In this document: positions 22,035 through 62,643 of the stretch, in pieces
Layout of the letters: every line of letters starts with the position of its first letter
Position numbering within the stretch: position 1 is the stretch's first letter
Virus record (IMG/VR): IMGVR_UViG_3300042868_010004
Span: 62,001 to 126,000 of that record
Length of the DNA stretch: 64,000 nt
Direction: 5' to 3' (one strand)
Origin: a virus
The notes under the pieces: model-generated
The model's input: only the letters and a program-made list of their open reading frames with translations
Databases searched by the model: none
Told to the model about the DNA's origin: nothing
Made by a program: the position numbers and the translations under genes

Positions 22035-22083
22035 GGCTATTAAGTTTCAGGTGTTTCCTGAGATTCTAAGGCTGACCGTTTTA

Positions 22084-22091
22084 GTGTAAAC
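22084..22091 (+). promoter_or_regulatory. GTGTAAAC element 8 nt before the adhesin gene
   Basis: TTTTAGTGTAAACTT matches the copies at 2768, 24456 and 57897. The ATG at 22100 follows after 8 nt, leaving no room for a ribosome binding site. Confidence 0.45.
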
Positions 22092-22099
22092 TTGTTTTT

Positions 22100-53622: not shown

Positions 53623-53646
53623 CAAGACAAGGAAAGGCTTTACACT
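53619..53646 (+). promoter_or_regulatory. Promoter of the ribonucleotide reductase operon
   Basis: TTGACA, a 16-nt spacer and TACACT. The predicted start is near 53653. The minus-strand reading of the -10 region is AGTGTAAAG, close to the late element, probably by coincidence. Confidence 0.7.
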
Positions 53647-53774: not shown

Positions 53775-56700
53775 ATGAGTCTTCAAGCATTGTCTGATTA
53801 CGTCGTTTATTCCAAGTATAGTCATTATCTTCCTGAGAAGAAGCGGCGCGAAACATGGGAGGAAATTACGGATCGAGTGTTCGGAATGCATTCTGTAAAA
53901 TACAAGAAGGAACTTGAAGAGAGTAAAGAGTTTGTAGATATGTTTGAGTCTGCTAAAAATGCGGTGAAAAAAAAACGAGTTTTGGGTTCCCAGCGCGCGC
54001 TTCAGTTTGCTAGTCCAGACCCCAAATTTGGTATCCTAAATAAGAACGAAAAGATCTTTAATTGCACGTCTACTCTTGTAGATCGCCCTCGTGCCTTTCA
54101 AGAAATTGGGTATGTTCTTTTGAATGGTTGTGGCGCTGGTTATAGTGTGCAATATCATCATATTGAGAAACTTCCAAATATTAAAAAACCGACCAAGGGC
54201 AAAAAAACATATCGGCCAGTCGATCAGATCGAAGGATGGTCGGAGTGCTGGGGTGTTCTAATTAATTCATTTTTTGAAAACGGTATTTATCCTGAGTATG
54301 AGGGATACGAGATTGAATTTGATTTAAGTGAAATTCGTCCCGCTGGTGCTCTTATTGCTGGTCAATTTAAAGCCCCCGGCCCACAACCCTTAGAAAAATC
54401 TCTAAACAAGATTCGCTCCTTGATTAATTCGGTTCTTGATAGCGGACAGAACCGCTTATCCTCATTAAATGTTCATGATACTATCTGTCATATTGCAGAT
54501 GCGATCATCAGCGGGGGTGTGAGGCGCAGCGCCCTGATCTGTCTTTTCTCGTTGACTGACAAGGAGATGCGCGAGTGCAAAACAGGAAATTGGTTTGAAG
54601 AAAACGCTCAAAGAGGTCGTGCAAATAATTCCGTTGTATTAGAGCGCGGTAAGGTAACAAAGGAACAGTTTGATGAAATTTTTGAGAATATAAAAAGCCA
54701 CGGTGAGCCAGGTTTTTATTTTGTGGATGACGGAGCAATACATCAATCAACAAACCCATGTATGAGATTGGACGCCAAGCTCTTGACAAAAAATGGAATT
54801 AGAGAATTGAAAGATATTTTGGAGGGTGATTACATTTGGTCTTCCGAGGGTTGGACAAAGGTTACAAAAAAATGGAAAACTGGAACTAAAGATGTTTATC
54901 GCTACAAGACAACTTTCGGCTCAATTGAGCTAACAGAAAATCATCTTGTTTTGAGTGAGGGTGATTTGATTGAAGTAGGGCAAGCTGAGTCTCTGGATAT
55001 TTTGAGAGGACCATTTGAAACAGATGTAAAATTAGATAATCAATCAATCATGGATGGGCTTGTTTTGGGTGACGGAACCTACCATAAAGCTTCTAAAACT
55101 TTAATGCTTTTAATCGGAAAGGACGACAAGGACTATTTTGACTCTGAGATAGCTAGCCTGATTATTAATCGCGCGGACTCAATTCAGGACTATGGATGGA
55201 GAGTTAAGACGACCATAACTTCTGACGAGTTATGCTATACCTACAACCGTTCTGTTCCGAATCGTTTCTTATGCGCAAAAAATGAAAAAGTTTGTTCTTT
55301 TTTAAGGGGGCTTTACTCGGCCAACGGAAGCATTTGCGGGAATCGAGTGACCTTAAAAACGACATCTAAAAAATTAGTGGACGATGTTCAATTGATGCTT
55401 TCTTCAATTGGAATTGCCTCTTACTATACAACCAATAAACCATCATTGGTTAGTTTTAGTAACGGGGACTATCTCTGCAAGGAAAGTTTTGACATTAATA
55501 TCTCCAAAGATATTCATAAGTTTTATCAAAAAATTGGATTTTTACAAAAATATAAAAACGAAAAACTTGAAAAAGTAATAAATGAAAGACAGTATACAAC
55601 CAAAAATGAAAGATCCAAAGATATTATCGGGGCTGATTTCGTTTGTCATGAAGATGTGTATGATATTACGGTAGATAATGAAAGTCATACCTTTTGGTGT
55701 AATGGTTTTAACATACATAACTGCTGCGAAATTGGGTTTTGGCCCATCTCAGAAAGCGGACAGTCTGGATTCGGCTTTTGCAACCTATGCGAGATCAACG
55801 GGTTAGAATGCAAGACTAAAGAAGAATTTTTTGAGTTATGCCAGCACGCCGCCTTTATTGGGACTCTTCAGGCGGGCTATAACTCTACCCCTTATCTTGG
55901 CAAAGCTACGGAAGATATTCTTCGCAAAGAAGCACTCCTCGGCGTTTCGGTTACTGGATGGATGGACTCACCGAATACTCTGTTCAACGAGGAAAACCTT
56001 AAAGCTGGCGTTGAAATCGTAAAACAAACAAACGAAAAAGTCGCCAAAATTATTGGTGTAAATCCCGCCGCTAGAACTACCTGCACAAAACCCTCCGGAA
56101 CAGCGTCCTCCGTTCTTATGACCGGATCTGGTATTCACGCGCAGCATTCTCGAAAATTTCTTCGCCGCGCTCAGGTGAACAAAAAAGAATTTGCCGGTAA
56201 GATCATGAAGAGGAAGAATAAGTGCGCGGTTGTTGAATCCGTTTATTCCACAAACAAGACCGATAACGTTATTTCTTTTCCATGTGAGGTAAATTCCGAG
56301 GCTATTGTAAAGGGTGATTTGTCAGCCATTGGTTTTCTTGAAAAGGTTAAACTAGCTTATCAAAGCTGGGTTCTACCGGGAACTTATGCCGACAGGGGTC
56401 TGAATAAAGCTGTGACCCATAATATATCTGTAACTGTTAATGTGGGTGATGATGAATGGGATGGCGCAAGGGATTATATTTTTGAAAACAGAGGTTACTT
56501 TTCCGGAATCTCTCTCCTTTCTCGGCAGGGCGATTTGATTTATGATCAGGCTCCGTTTGCCGAAGTCTTAGATCCTAAAGAACTCGTTGAAAAATATGGG
56601 GATGCTGTTCCTTTGGCGTCGGGATTGATTGTTGATGGATTGCATTCGTTTGATAATCTTTGGGTTGCCTGCGAGACGGCATTAGGGGTTCGAAAAATTG

Positions 56701-57083
56701 ACGAGAAGCCCGATCCCGTTGAGCCCAAGAAGCCGCGCAAATCTCGCGGAATGAAAGAAAAGGAATACACCTCCGCCTTAGCCAATTATGCGATAGAACT
56801 TAATCTTTATTATCAAGCCAAGGGTGAATACGAAACGATTGAGCATAAAAAAGATTGGGTTCGTCGGGCAAAACAGTTTACTGAAAGATATTTTAATAAC
56901 GATATGGTTAAAATGACTTACTGCCTAAAACATGTAAGTTTGTGGAAAGATTGGTTGGATATTAAACGAGAGTGGAAAGATATTGATTGGGCAAATATTA
57001 AGGAAAACGATCAAGAATATGTTGATGCCGATACAATGGCGGGGGCAAGTTGCTCTGGTGGGGCTTGTGAAATTTTAAAGTAA
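53775..57083 (+). CDS. nrdJ: Adenosylcobalamin-dependent (class II) ribonucleotide reductase with intein
   Basis: 1102 residues including a 321-residue intein; the spliced enzyme would be 781 residues, close to the monomeric Lactobacillus-type reductase. Landmarks: NCTSTLVDRPRAFQEIG (96-112) with the first redox Cys; NGCGAGYSVQ; GGVRRSALI (248-256); after splicing NP|CCEIGFW with the thiyl-radical Cys; FCNLCEIN with the second redox Cys; a TCTKPSGTASS motif; and a C-terminal CSGGAC pair that re-reduces the active site. It converts ribonucleoside triphosphates to deoxynucleotides using coenzyme B12. It is followed in the operon by a Bfd-like protein and the B12 adenosyltransferase. Confidence 0.93.
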   Translation: MSLQALSDYVVYSKYSHYLPEKKRRETWEEITDRVFGMHSVKYKKELEESKEFVDMFESAKNAVKKKRVLGSQRALQFASPDPKFGILNKNEKIFNCTSTLVDRPRAFQEIGYVLLNGCGAGYSVQYHHIEKLPNIKKPTKGKKTYRPVDQIEGWSECWGVLINSFFENGIYPEYEGYEIEFDLSEIRPAGALIAGQFKAPGPQPLEKSLNKIRSLINSVLDSGQNRLSSLNVHDTICHIADAIISGGVRRSALICLFSLTDKEMRECKTGNWFEENAQRGRANNSVVLERGKVTKEQFDEIFENIKSHGEPGFYFVDDGAIHQSTNPCMRLDAKLLTKNGIRELKDILEGDYIWSSEGWTKVTKKWKTGTKDVYRYKTTFGSIELTENHLVLSEGDLIEVGQAESLDILRGPFETDVKLDNQSIMDGLVLGDGTYHKASKTLMLLIGKDDKDYFDSEIASLIINRADSIQDYGWRVKTTITSDELCYTYNRSVPNRFLCAKNEKVCSFLRGLYSANGSICGNRVTLKTTSKKLVDDVQLMLSSIGIASYYTTNKPSLVSFSNGDYLCKESFDINISKDIHKFYQKIGFLQKYKNEKLEKVINERQYTTKNERSKDIIGADFVCHEDVYDITVDNESHTFWCNGFNIHNCCEIGFWPISESGQSGFGFCNLCEINGLECKTKEEFFELCQHAAFIGTLQAGYNSTPYLGKATEDILRKEALLGVSVTGWMDSPNTLFNEENLKAGVEIVKQTNEKVAKIIGVNPAARTTCTKPSGTASSVLMTGSGIHAQHSRKFLRRAQVNKKEFAGKIMKRKNKCAVVESVYSTNKTDNVISFPCEVNSEAIVKGDLSAIGFLEKVKLAYQSWVLPGTYADRGLNKAVTHNISVTVNVGDDEWDGARDYIFENRGYFSGISLLSRQGDLIYDQAPFAEVLDPKELVEKYGDAVPLASGLIVDGLHSFDNLWVACETALGVRKIDEKPDPVEPKKPRKSRGMKEKEYTSALANYAIELNLYYQAKGEYETIEHKKDWVRRAKQFTERYFNNDMVKMTYCLKHVSLWKDWLDIKREWKDIDWANIKENDQEYVDADTMAGASCSGGACEILK
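54759..55721 (+). other. Intein with LAGLIDADG endonuclease in nrdJ
   Basis: Codons 329-649. The first intein residue is C329 (CMRLDAKLLT), the block-B motif LTENHLVL lies near 387, and the splice end is VYDITVDNESHTF then NIHN with extein C650. Two LAGLIDADG motifs (MDGLVLGDG near 426 and FLRGLYSANG near 509) define a homing endonuclease. C1, the block-B His, penultimate His, terminal Asn and +1 Cys are all present, so splicing should be possible. Insertion is exactly at the catalytic NP|C site. Confidence 0.9.
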
Positions 57084-57277
57084 TGTCGATCTCCTGTATC
57101 TGCCATAATATCCCCTTAGAGGAAGCCATTCAAAAAGCCCCCTCTTTGGGCGACTTGCAGGCGGCGGGTATTTGCGCCACCAAATGCAAATTATGCGTTC
57201 CGTTCTTGGAAGACCTATTCCGACAGAAAAGCAAAGGCAGACAGACACATAAACAAGAAGAACTTAACCATGCCTAA
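57083..57277 (+). CDS. Bfd-like [2Fe-2S] protein
   Basis: 64 residues with C5, C7, C31, C35 and C38 (CICHNIPLEEAIQ, then ICATKCKLC). This CxC...CxxC arrangement with a helical core matches the bacterioferritin-associated ferredoxin/NirBD-type [2Fe-2S] domain. Its ATG overlaps the reductase stop by one base and its end overlaps the adenosyltransferase start by 8 nt, so all three are coupled. It may supply electrons to the reductase or to cobalamin reduction; this is inference. Confidence 0.72.
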   Translation: MSISCICHNIPLEEAIQKAPSLGDLQAAGICATKCKLCVPFLEDLFRQKSKGRQTHKQEELNHA

Positions 57278-57863
57278 ATCTGTAAAATCCGTCGCGACTA
57301 AAACCGGAGATACCGGAACAACCTCCCTGCTATATGGCGAGCGAGTTCTGAAATCAGACAGTCGGATTGAACTAGTCGGTCAGATTGATGAGCTTTCCGC
57401 CTTCCTCGGACTGGCCAAGGCTGAATTAACCGAGTATTTAGCCCGAAATTCAATCTATCTCAGCGTTGAGTCCTGTCCTGTCGCCTACGATGTGATTGAA
57501 ACCTTGAAAGAGGTCCAACTGAAATTCATCGAAATCATGGGTGAAATCGCAACGGAAGATGATAAGAAAAGCCGGTATGAGAAAGGCTTCGGAATCTTTG
57601 ATCTGCCCGACTTGGAAAAACTCGACCGAAGAATCCATACGTTAGAGACCGAATACGATCTCACCCCGACCGATTGGGTTCTGTATGGCTGTAATAAGAA
57701 TGCCGCCGCCTTGGATGTCGCTTCAAAAGTCTGCCGGAGGGTTGAGCGAGTCTTCTGGATGAAAAGCATACATGGGACAACAATCCGGCCCGTTATTTTA
57801 AAATATATCAACCGGCTGAGTGATTATCTTTATCTTTGCGCCAGATTCTTTGAGAAGAAATAA
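57270..57863 (+). CDS. Cob(I)alamin adenosyltransferase, PduO type
   Basis: 197 residues. The ATP-binding N-terminus TKTGDTGTTSLLYGERVLKSD (residues 10-30, in shorter form TKTGDTGTTSLLYGERV) and the ELVGQIDELSAFLGLAK segment are the PduO signature. VCRRVERVFW (about 152-161) and YINRLSDYLYLCARF (about 178-192) complete the five-helix family motifs. It transfers the adenosyl group of ATP to cob(I)alamin, making the coenzyme B12 required by the upstream reductase. The gene is translationally coupled to the Bfd-like gene. Confidence 0.9.
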   Translation: MPKSVKSVATKTGDTGTTSLLYGERVLKSDSRIELVGQIDELSAFLGLAKAELTEYLARNSIYLSVESCPVAYDVIETLKEVQLKFIEIMGEIATEDDKKSRYEKGFGIFDLPDLEKLDRRIHTLETEYDLTPTDWVLYGCNKNAAALDVASKVCRRVERVFWMKSIHGTTIRPVILKYINRLSDYLYLCARFFEKK

Positions 57864-57937
57864 CGGAGAAAGGCGCTTCTAGGACGGATGCTATTAGTGT
57901 AAACTTAGATAAGCAAAAACCGCATAGCCTTTCTCCG
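57864..57937. repeat. 11-bp inverted repeat around a GTGTAAAC element
   Basis: CGGAGAAAGGC (57864) and GCCTTTCTCCG (57927) are perfect complements 52 nt apart. Between them lies AGTGTAAAC (57897-57904), the putative late promoter core. The structure sits just before the ATG at 57942 and after the B12 operon. It could form a hairpin terminator for read-through from upstream, or an operator-like element. Confidence 0.5.
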
Positions 57938-59204: not shown

Positions 59205-60454
59205 GTGAACTACCTTGCCCTAAAGGGCCGTGACTTCCTGCTTCATAGACCCACTAACGCGAGTCTCCACAGGCTTAACTTTCCGACATTCCATCGGTAG
59301 TGAGGTTTTGCCCGAAAGCAAACCAAATTTTTTAATATTTATGGCCGCGTTTAAATCACGGTCATGCTTGGTCCCGCAAACGCAGGTCCAGTGTCTATCG
59401 GCTAGGGTTAAGCCATGATTAATTTCGCCACAGCTTGAACAAGTTTTAGAACTGGGTTCAAATCGGCCAATTTTAATCAGATTAATCCCTTTCCATTCAC
59501 ACTTGTATTTCAAAACTTCGTAAAACCGACCGATAGCGACATCTGACATTGCTCTGGCCAATTTCCGATTTTTCATAATGCCCTTTACATTCAAATCCTC
59601 AATACAAATCGTGTCCACTTGGTTATCGTTGACGATTTTTGCCGTGACTTGATGAATGTAATTATTCCGCTGGTTTGTTACTTTTTCATATTGTTTAGCT
59701 AGTTTGATTCGCGATTTGTCTCTGTTCTTGCTGTCCTTTTTCTTTCTTGAGTGCGAGCGGCTGAGTTTTCTTAGTTTTTTGAGTGATTTTTTAAGAAATT
59801 TATTATTTTCAAAGGTCTGCCCATTTGAAATTGTGAGAAAAGTTTTAATCCCGGTATCAATCCCGATGGCGCCGTTTTCGGTTATCGGTTTGAGTTCTGA
59901 TTTGCTATCGGGAGTTTCTACTAAAATTGACGCAAAATATTTGCCAGAAGGAACTTGGGAAATTGTGACCGTTTTGATATTTCCCTCAAAAGTTCTATGA
60001 AAATTGGCTTTAATTTTATTTTCTTTTGTAAATTTCGGTATTTGCAAGTATCCGGTTCCAAAATCGGCCTTGGCGTTTTGCGGGCACTGAAAGGAGTGGC
60101 TATTAAGTTTTTTGCTTTTAAATTTTGGGAAACCTTTCTTTTCTTTGAAAAATCTCTGAAAGGCATTATCCAAGTTCCTTGCCGCCATCTGCAAACACTG
60201 AGAATTTACTTCATTCAACCAAGAAAACTCTTGACTTGCCTTCAGTAAAGTGACACGATTCATTACATCAAAACAACTCAACTTTTCCCTCTTCTCATAT
60301 GCCTTTATCTTCTCTGCCAACCCCCAATTATACATCCAGCGAGCGCAACCAAAATGCTTTGCCAAAAGCACCTTTTGCTCTTGATTTGGGTAAATTTGGT
60401 ATTTAAACGCTTTTAACATCTTCCTATTTATGATTACATATTTTTCTTACAGAA
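59205..60454 (-). mobile_element. IS200/IS605-type TnpB element 2, inserted in a promoter
   Basis: The right end on the minus strand reads GCAGGAAGTCACGGCCCTTT then AGGGCAAGGTAGTTCAC, like the first copy. The left end is marked by GTTTTCAC then TTCTGTAAGAAAAA. Removing 59205-60454 joins TTGACAA to GTGAAAACAACTGTGTAAAAT, restoring a consensus promoter (TTGACA, 16 nt, TAAAAT). This supports the boundaries and the idea that insertion follows TTCAC on the minus strand. There is no tnpA. Confidence 0.75.
59220..60419 (-). CDS. tnpB: TnpB RNA-guided nuclease
   Basis: 399 residues, intact. RuvC residues: D188 (IGIDTGIKTF), E274 (CIEDLNVKG), D355 (HDRDLNAAINI). The zinc ribbon is complete (C327 and C330 in CSSCG; C346 and C348 in CVCG). 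The N-terminal part is the helical TnpB/OrfB HTH region. Its last codons (MKQEVTAL) lie in the guide-RNA scaffold region, shared with copy 1. Expected function: RNA-guided DNA cleavage favouring retention of the element. Confidence 0.9.
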   Translation of the reverse strand: MLKAFKYQIYPNQEQKVLLAKHFGCARWMYNWGLAEKIKAYEKREKLSCFDVMNRVTLLKASQEFSWLNEVNSQCLQMAARNLDNAFQRFFKEKKGFPKFKSKKLNSHSFQCPQNAKADFGTGYLQIPKFTKENKIKANFHRTFEGNIKTVTISQVPSGKYFASILVETPDSKSELKPITENGAIGIDTGIKTFLTISNGQTFENNKFLKKSLKKLRKLSRSHSRKKKDSKNRDKSRIKLAKQYEKVTNQRNNYIHQVTAKIVNDNQVDTICIEDLNVKGIMKNRKLARAMSDVAIGRFYEVLKYKCEWKGINLIKIGRFEPSSKTCSSCGEINHGLTLADRHWTCVCGTKHDRDLNAAINIKKFGLLSGKTSLPMECRKVKPVETRVSGSMKQEVTAL

Positions 60455-61809: not shown

Positions 61810-62643
61810 ATGCCCAAACTAGAAATACCGAAAGAAATTCTTTCCGAAATGTCCAAAGATTATAATAATGGTCTCTCTGTAGAGAAGCTGGTTTCTAAAT
61901 ACGAAAATAAATATACCGAATGGCAAATTCGTCGTCGCTTAGTTGAAAATGGAACTCCCATGCGCCATAGGGCGGCTCTTTCTAGAAAATATGACTTAGA
62001 TCAGCCCTTCTTTAATGTGATTGATACAGAGGAAAAGGCTTATTGGTTGGGGATGATGTTCGCCGATGGATCAATTTACTCCTCAAAAAAGGGAAAAATG
62101 TTTCATTTAACTTTGCAAGGAAGAGACTTGCACCATGTTAAAAAGTTTAAAAAAGCCCTAAAAGCAGAAGCGCCCGTTCACCATCAGAAAAAGAAAAATC
62201 ATTATGGTCTTTTTATTTGGAGCGGGTTACTTTACGACTCTTTGGAGCGAGCTGGATGCATAAGACAAAAAGGGGCCTATATTAGGCTTCCTAAAGAAGA
62301 TATTCTTCCCAAAAGTCTTGTCCGCCATTTTGTTCGCGGTTATTTTGATGGGAACGGATGTTTTTCTTGGAGTAGGTCAAATTTTAGGGTCGCTATCAGA
62401 ATAGTTTCCAATACTGATTTTGTTGCAGATCTAAAAGAGATTTTTACTTCTGAGGTAGGCGTCAAACATTACTACCATAAAGAGCCAGTAGAATATCAAG
62501 ATTATCCCGGCAGATACTATACAAATCTTGATTTCGGAACATATGAAGGGGCGCTTGGCCTATATCATTATATGTATGACAATGCGACTGTTTTCTTGGA
62601 GAGAAAGAAAGAAAAGTTTAACAAATTTATCAAAGAGTCATGA
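61810..62643 (+). CDS. Free-standing LAGLIDADG homing endonuclease
   Basis: 277 residues. Residues 1-60 include a helix-turn-helix-like part (a Lys-rich helix, then YTEWQIRRRLVENG). Two LAGLIDADG motifs, WLGMMFADG (79-87) and FVRGYFDGNG (174-183), make a pseudo-dimeric endonuclease. It is not inside an intein or intron. Its stop overlaps the ATG of the sugar dehydratase by 4 nt. It could be a remnant intein/intron-type mobility gene that has settled between phage genes. Confidence 0.8.
   Translation: MPKLEIPKEILSEMSKDYNNGLSVEKLVSKYENKYTEWQIRRRLVENGTPMRHRAALSRKYDLDQPFFNVIDTEEKAYWLGMMFADGSIYSSKKGKMFHLTLQGRDLHHVKKFKKALKAEAPVHHQKKKNHYGLFIWSGLLYDSLERAGCIRQKGAYIRLPKEDILPKSLVRHFVRGYFDGNGCFSWSRSNFRVAIRIVSNTDFVADLKEIFTSEVGVKHYYHKEPVEYQDYPGRYYTNLDFGTYEGALGLYHYMYDNATVFLERKKEKFNKFIKES

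Follow-up and report, generated by a model that had tools for sequence, protein, structure and literature searches.

Why should a phage carry, next to a ribonucleotide reductase that depends on coenzyme B12, an enzyme of the kind that makes coenzyme B12? This question is raised by three consecutive genes in a 64,000-nucleotide stretch of viral DNA (hereafter, the window), which covers bases 62001-126000 of the 191,122-bp virus record IMGVR_UViG_3300042868_010004. The genes, all on the + strand, are predicted to encode the precursor of a class II ribonucleotide reductase (RNR) of the monomeric, RTPR type (53775-57083; 1102 amino acids (aa), 781 aa once spliced), a 64-aa BFD-like [2Fe-2S] protein (57083-57277) with Cys5, Cys7, Cys35 and Cys38 arranged as CxC...CxxC, and a 197-aa PduO-type ATP:cob(I)alamin adenosyltransferase (ATR; 57270-57863). 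In class II RNRs, adenosylcobalamin (AdoCbl) is the radical initiator, and cob(II)alamin is left upon inactivation. We read the block as an operon by which the phage both supplies nucleotides and maintains the cofactor that this requires, and the probability of this reading is put at about 0.7.

The original prediction had described three phage-encoded genes coupled by overlaps, and its coordinates, strand and overlaps are all borne out: the RNR and BFD-like genes overlap by 1 nt (TAATG) and the BFD-like and ATR genes by 8 nt (ATGCCTAA). The phage origin is likewise upheld, because a 2018-aa tail tape-measure protein is encoded in the window, so the DNA is that of a phage and no stray host contig.

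The answer proposed here is carried mainly by comparison with other phages. A search of viral contigs with the single ATR sequence gave no match and an ATR profile was needed; the profile scan gave ATR genes in 15 virus records, nine of which also show a class II RNR; the other six, in which none is seen, are only 5-38 kb fragments. A class II RNR is encoded in each of the seven ATR-bearing records that reach 50 kb, the window's record included. The two genes lie within 1.3 kb of each other in the window, L003, L014, L091, L093, L095 and L104, and the adjacency in six long records has a p of about 2e-6 under random placement. In the ATR tree the phage enzymes fall into several groups (the window with L003 and L091; L104 with Acinetobacter; L093-L096), and this scatter indicates that the ATR-RNR pairing arose at least twice and probably three times. 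The strongest argument is provided by L003, a 172-kb record in which the RNR gene is followed by endonuclease-like, BFD-like and ATR genes. Its RNR scores 450 bits against NrdJ_Z (cut-off, 400) and is thus an AdoCbl-dependent RNR of a type unlike the window's, and the BFD-like proteins and ATRs of the two phages are about 44% and 57-59% identical, respectively. Because the same BFD-ATR pair stands behind two types of AdoCbl-dependent RNR, the pair appears to serve B12 chemistry. The claim of the original prediction that the ATR would supply the cofactor of the reductase is well supported by these comparisons, that is, by the independent ATR-RNR pairings and by the BFD-ATR pair behind a second RNR type. 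The search for the same gene order in other phages, which that prediction had proposed, succeeded in part: the uninterrupted three-gene order was found only in the window, while L003 has it with the other RNR type and an endonuclease-like insert.

In the collection of 50,697 annotated phage records, matches to phage-borne class II RNRs are common (307 records), and no verified phage with an ATR was found. The ATR matches opened there were five unannotated, unverified scaffolds and one in "Acinetobacter phage MD-2021a", whose match has the host-type neighbours btuB, trpB and ydiU, and none of them was counted as phage evidence.

The reductase matches PHROG 367 (ribonucleotide reductase) at 8e-77, NCBIfam TIGR02505 (RTPR) at 1.8e-40 and the L. 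leichmannii RTPR 1l1l, by sequence, with an E of 2e-15. Its score against TIGR02505, 138.8 bits, is below the cut-off of 340.05, and since intein-free relatives are below it as well (141.8 bits for L004), the phage RNR clade is regarded as divergent. C97, the motif N327-P328-C329-x-E331, C348 and the pair C772/C777 (spliced numbering) are invariant in the alignment of five phage RNRs. C348 aligns with C419 of 1l1l, and the spacing from NPC to CNL in the intein-free L007 is 11 residues, the same as in L. leichmannii. No PF00268 match indicating a small RNR subunit, NrdB, was found in the 191-kb record, which is possibly incomplete. A thioredoxin with a CGPC motif (TIGR01068, 3e-14) is encoded by the same phage far from the RNR (L113:1477-1746, in the record near 183.4 kb).

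The RNR open reading frame (ORF) is interrupted, immediately ahead of the catalytic Cys (NP/C-C-E-I), by a 321-aa LAGLIDADG intein (54759-55721, + strand), a feature absent from the original prediction. Its boundaries, set by motif and by alignment to intein-free relatives, are aa 329-649 of the precursor, with C329 as the first residue, H648-N649 as the last two and C650 as the +1 residue. The LAGLIDADG_3 domain (PF14528) is matched at aa 505-588 with 8.8e-12, and the intein C-terminal model TIGR01443 weakly (11 bits against a cut-off of 15.6). When the flanks are joined they read NPCCEI, which is also the sequence of the intein-free L004 and L007; L002 and a Rhizobium phage have NPCVEI. The +1 Cys of splicing doubles as the reductase's predicted radical Cys (codon 55722-55724, + strand), corresponding to Cys408 of L. 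leichmannii RTPR, and the unspliced reductase should therefore be inactive. Inteins are already known in phage RNR genes, nrdJ included (PMC3653736), and the other RNRs collected here are all too short to contain one. Free-standing endonuclease-like genes, judged by eye, are situated between the RNR and BFD-like genes in three phages (L002:7207-8001, L003:6943-7995 and L004:6970-8004).

The 64-aa protein of the window has no direct match in the family libraries, PF04324 included. Of the six phage relatives tested, five have weak matches to PF04324 (Fer2_BFD), at 2.9e-5 to 4e-3, and the top score, 24.8 bits, is below the gathering score of 26. In the alignment of seven phage BFD-like proteins, Cys5, Cys7, Cys35 and Cys38 are invariant; Cys31, first considered as a cluster ligand, was rejected, as it is not conserved among the seven. 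On this pattern the protein is very probably a [2Fe-2S] protein, and, because the four cluster cysteines are invariant, electron donation by it would be plausible. A profile of the seven proteins matched 19 of 145 whole bacterial genomes (best, 1.6e-6), and all ten of the cellular matches inspected are the central [2Fe-2S] domain of NifU. Every copy of the BFD-like gene found adjoins a class II RNR gene, which it follows in seven phages (six RTPR-type RNRs and one of NrdJ_Z type), and among 80 close RTPR relatives it is confined to L011, L012 and L015, whose RNRs are all closely related to that of the window. At the position of this gene, the ATR-bearing phage L014 encodes a DUF1289 Cys-rich protein (L014:10328-10531, 8e-14). 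A 159-aa predicted membrane protein at the ATR position of L004 (L004:8159-8638), considered as a possible small-molecule transporter subunit, has no family match and was not used.

The ATR exceeds the cut-offs of both PF01923 (9.3e-39, 133.7 bits; cut-off, 24) and TIGR00636, PduO_Nterm (114.8 bits; cut-off, 108.45). Its predicted structure (pLDDT, 82.7) has the five-helix-bundle fold of PduO, with Foldseek probabilities of 1.00 to 3ke4, 3gaj and 3ci4 and TM scores, normalized to the target, of 0.68-0.78. In human MMAB, Arg186, Arg190, Glu193, Arg194 and Ser217 contact or support AdoCbl and ATP (PMC9262797), and four of these five are kept in the window ATR as R156, E159, R160 and S184. Furthermore, nucleotide changes between the window and L003 ATR genes are biased to third codon positions, which suggests purifying selection; no dN/dS ratio is given, since dS among the ATR genes is saturated. 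The nearest cellular ATRs are mostly from Verrucomicrobiota metagenome-assembled genomes, a similarity that is a weak hint to donor or host, the tree join being poorly supported.

Several observations weigh against cofactor maintenance as the function of the block. In L096-type phages the ATR lies 19 kb from the RNR, and neither a cobalamin riboswitch nor any other RNA family was found in the window. The BFD-like protein gave no match in the PDB, either by sequence profile or by the fold of its model. Moreover, no ATR was seen in five of the seven RNR-BFD phages (for L002 and L004, anywhere in the record), and it adjoins the pair in the window and L003 only; the distribution of the BFD-like gene follows that of the RNR more closely than that of the ATR. 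As the RNR-BFD pair mostly stands without an ATR, the partner of the BFD-like protein need not be the ATR, and the protein might be unrelated to it, passing its electrons to the reductase for disulphide regeneration or to the cob(II)alamin of the reductase. We regard this alternative, which the distribution just described favours, as rather doubtful: disulphide reduction by a one-electron [2Fe-2S] carrier alone would be unusual, and the C-terminal Cys pair of the reductase is the usual target of thioredoxin, which the phage encodes. The class II RNR of a Thermus phage functions with host thioredoxin (PMC6459318).

A further point against cofactor maintenance concerns the fifth MMAB residue, Arg186, which touches both ATP and AdoCbl (PMC9262797) and whose position is occupied by Ser152 in the window ATR, by Ser in L003 and by Ala in L091. 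This replacement is the main doubt about ATR activity, which is not certain on the residues seen, although it does not settle the matter, Cys being found at the same position of a cellular Aminicenantes ATR. The ATR might thus be non-catalytic now and store, carry or sense cobalamin for the reductase, a role with which the ATP-controlled release of AdoCbl by MMAB (PMC9262797) would also agree. This is unlikely, however, as the other ligand residues tested are all kept (TKTGD.G, R25, D40, R156, E159, R160, N181, R182, S184 and D185), and Lys153, directly after Ser152, could substitute for the Arg.

It is similarly improbable that the BFD-like protein is a true bacterioferritin-associated ferredoxin, which would free iron from host bacterioferritin during infection. 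The resemblance of its relatives to Fer2_BFD speaks for such a role, but all copies found adjoin a class II RNR, an enzyme with no need of iron, and the cellular matches inspected are NifU central domains, with no stand-alone Bfd among them. Least probable of all is that the ATR belongs to general host metabolism, feeds host AdoCbl enzymes and stands beside the RNR incidentally, since, even though bacteria have other users of AdoCbl and a cobA-type ATR appears in a survey of viral metabolic genes with no link to RNR drawn (PMC11183165), the long ATR records all have a class II RNR, within 1.3 kb in five of the six lineages with long records, and the ATRs are of several origins.

As for the surroundings of the operon, a 399-aa TnpB/IS605 OrfB-like protein with zinc-ribbon CxxC motifs, recognized by eye, is encoded close downstream on the - strand (59220-60419), and a second LAGLIDADG protein of 277 aa follows at 61810-62643 (LAGLIDADG_3, 9e-8; weakly WhiA-like), possibly a free-standing homing endonuclease. 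In L003 and L004, an IMPDH/GMP-reductase-like gene is located near the RNR module (L003:9857-10930, PF00478 1.6e-34; L004:9706-10728, judged by eye). An identical 13-mer, TTAGTGTAAACTT, is present at 22081-22093 and 57894-57906, each time in the gap just before the next gene; with two mismatches allowed it is no more frequent than by chance. Its core, TTTACACTA, has three copies, one of them upstream of the RNR at 53639, and this count is above that in 100 of 100 shuffles. Promoter and terminator scans gave counts at chance level.

Taken as an operon for nucleotide supply with cofactor maintenance, the block may be pictured to work as follows. The precursor would excise its intein to give a monomeric class II RNR, assigned to its family by sequence, which would use AdoCbl to provide deoxynucleoside triphosphates (dNTPs) for phage DNA, and its disulphide would be reduced by thioredoxin, such as that encoded elsewhere in the phage. 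The ATR, as its family, fold and recurrent pairing suggest, would re-adenosylate with ATP either host cobalamin or the cob(II)alamin left by the reductase, and would thereby keep AdoCbl from limiting the dNTP supply. The BFD-like protein, with its predicted cluster ligands, may tentatively be seen as a one-electron carrier whose likeliest acceptor is cob(II)alamin bound to the ATR or to the reductase. A more far-reaching proposal, that it is a dedicated ferredoxin reducing cob(II)alamin and that the phage encodes the full cycle of B12 use, reduction and re-adenosylation, independent of the cobalamin reductase and ATR of the host, seems doubtful to us. An ATR beside an RNR, gained more than once, would be a concrete way for B12-dependent phages to secure active cofactor. 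It could open to them hosts with cobalamin but little AdoCbl, and some B12-dependent phages may not depend wholly on the host for active B12.

Each component has known counterparts. The window RNR shares with L. leichmannii RTPR (1l1l) and NrdJm of Thermus phage P74-26 the NPC.E and CNL cysteines, the C-terminal CxxxxC and the lack of a small subunit, and differs from them in the intein before the catalytic Cys, in the BFD-like and ATR genes that follow and in its score below the TIGR02505 cut-off. The ATR resembles L. reuteri PduO, B. cereus 3ke4 and human MMAB in its scores above the family cut-offs, in the PduO fold of its model and in most ligand residues; unlike known PduO-type ATRs, it is a phage product whose gene adjoins that of an RNR, and it has Ser152 for the Arg186-type residue, Trp136 where most have Phe, and about 20 additional aa near aa 58-77. 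With Bfd and the NifU central domain the phage BFD-like proteins have in common the CxC...CxxC with 27 residues between and a short helical model, but they are stand-alone proteins of 51-75 aa, beside RNR genes and below the Pfam gathering score.

Class II RNRs are also found in cobaviruses and in B12-dependent RTPR virioplankton. The papers describing these start from the premise that B12 is supplied or modified by the host (PMC6775973, PMC10547690) and neither contains the word adenosyltransferase, although it has been speculated that B12-dependent viruses may boost B12 uptake or production (PMC10547690). No description of an ATR-RNR pairing in phages was found in the literature, most subscription papers lying outside the scope, so its novelty is provisional; the parts are known, and the phage-encoded combination, with its repeated ATR-RNR pairing and change of RNR type, is apparently new.

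The closest known arrangement is the pdu operon, in which an AdoCbl-dependent enzyme, diol dehydratase, is encoded with PduO and with the corrin reductase PduS, a cobalamin-reducing Fe-S flavoprotein; cob(II)alamin bound to PduO-type ATRs can be reduced by weak one-electron donors and is adenosylated next (PMC2982820). Both sets consist of an AdoCbl enzyme, an Fe-S carrier and a PduO-type ATR. However, the pdu operon is bacterial, catabolic and equipped with a flavoprotein reductase, whereas in the phage set the AdoCbl enzyme is an RNR and the only counterpart of the flavoprotein is a small ferredoxin-like protein; by this analogy the phage genes may represent a pared-down form of the same scheme of AdoCbl enzyme, reduction and PduO.

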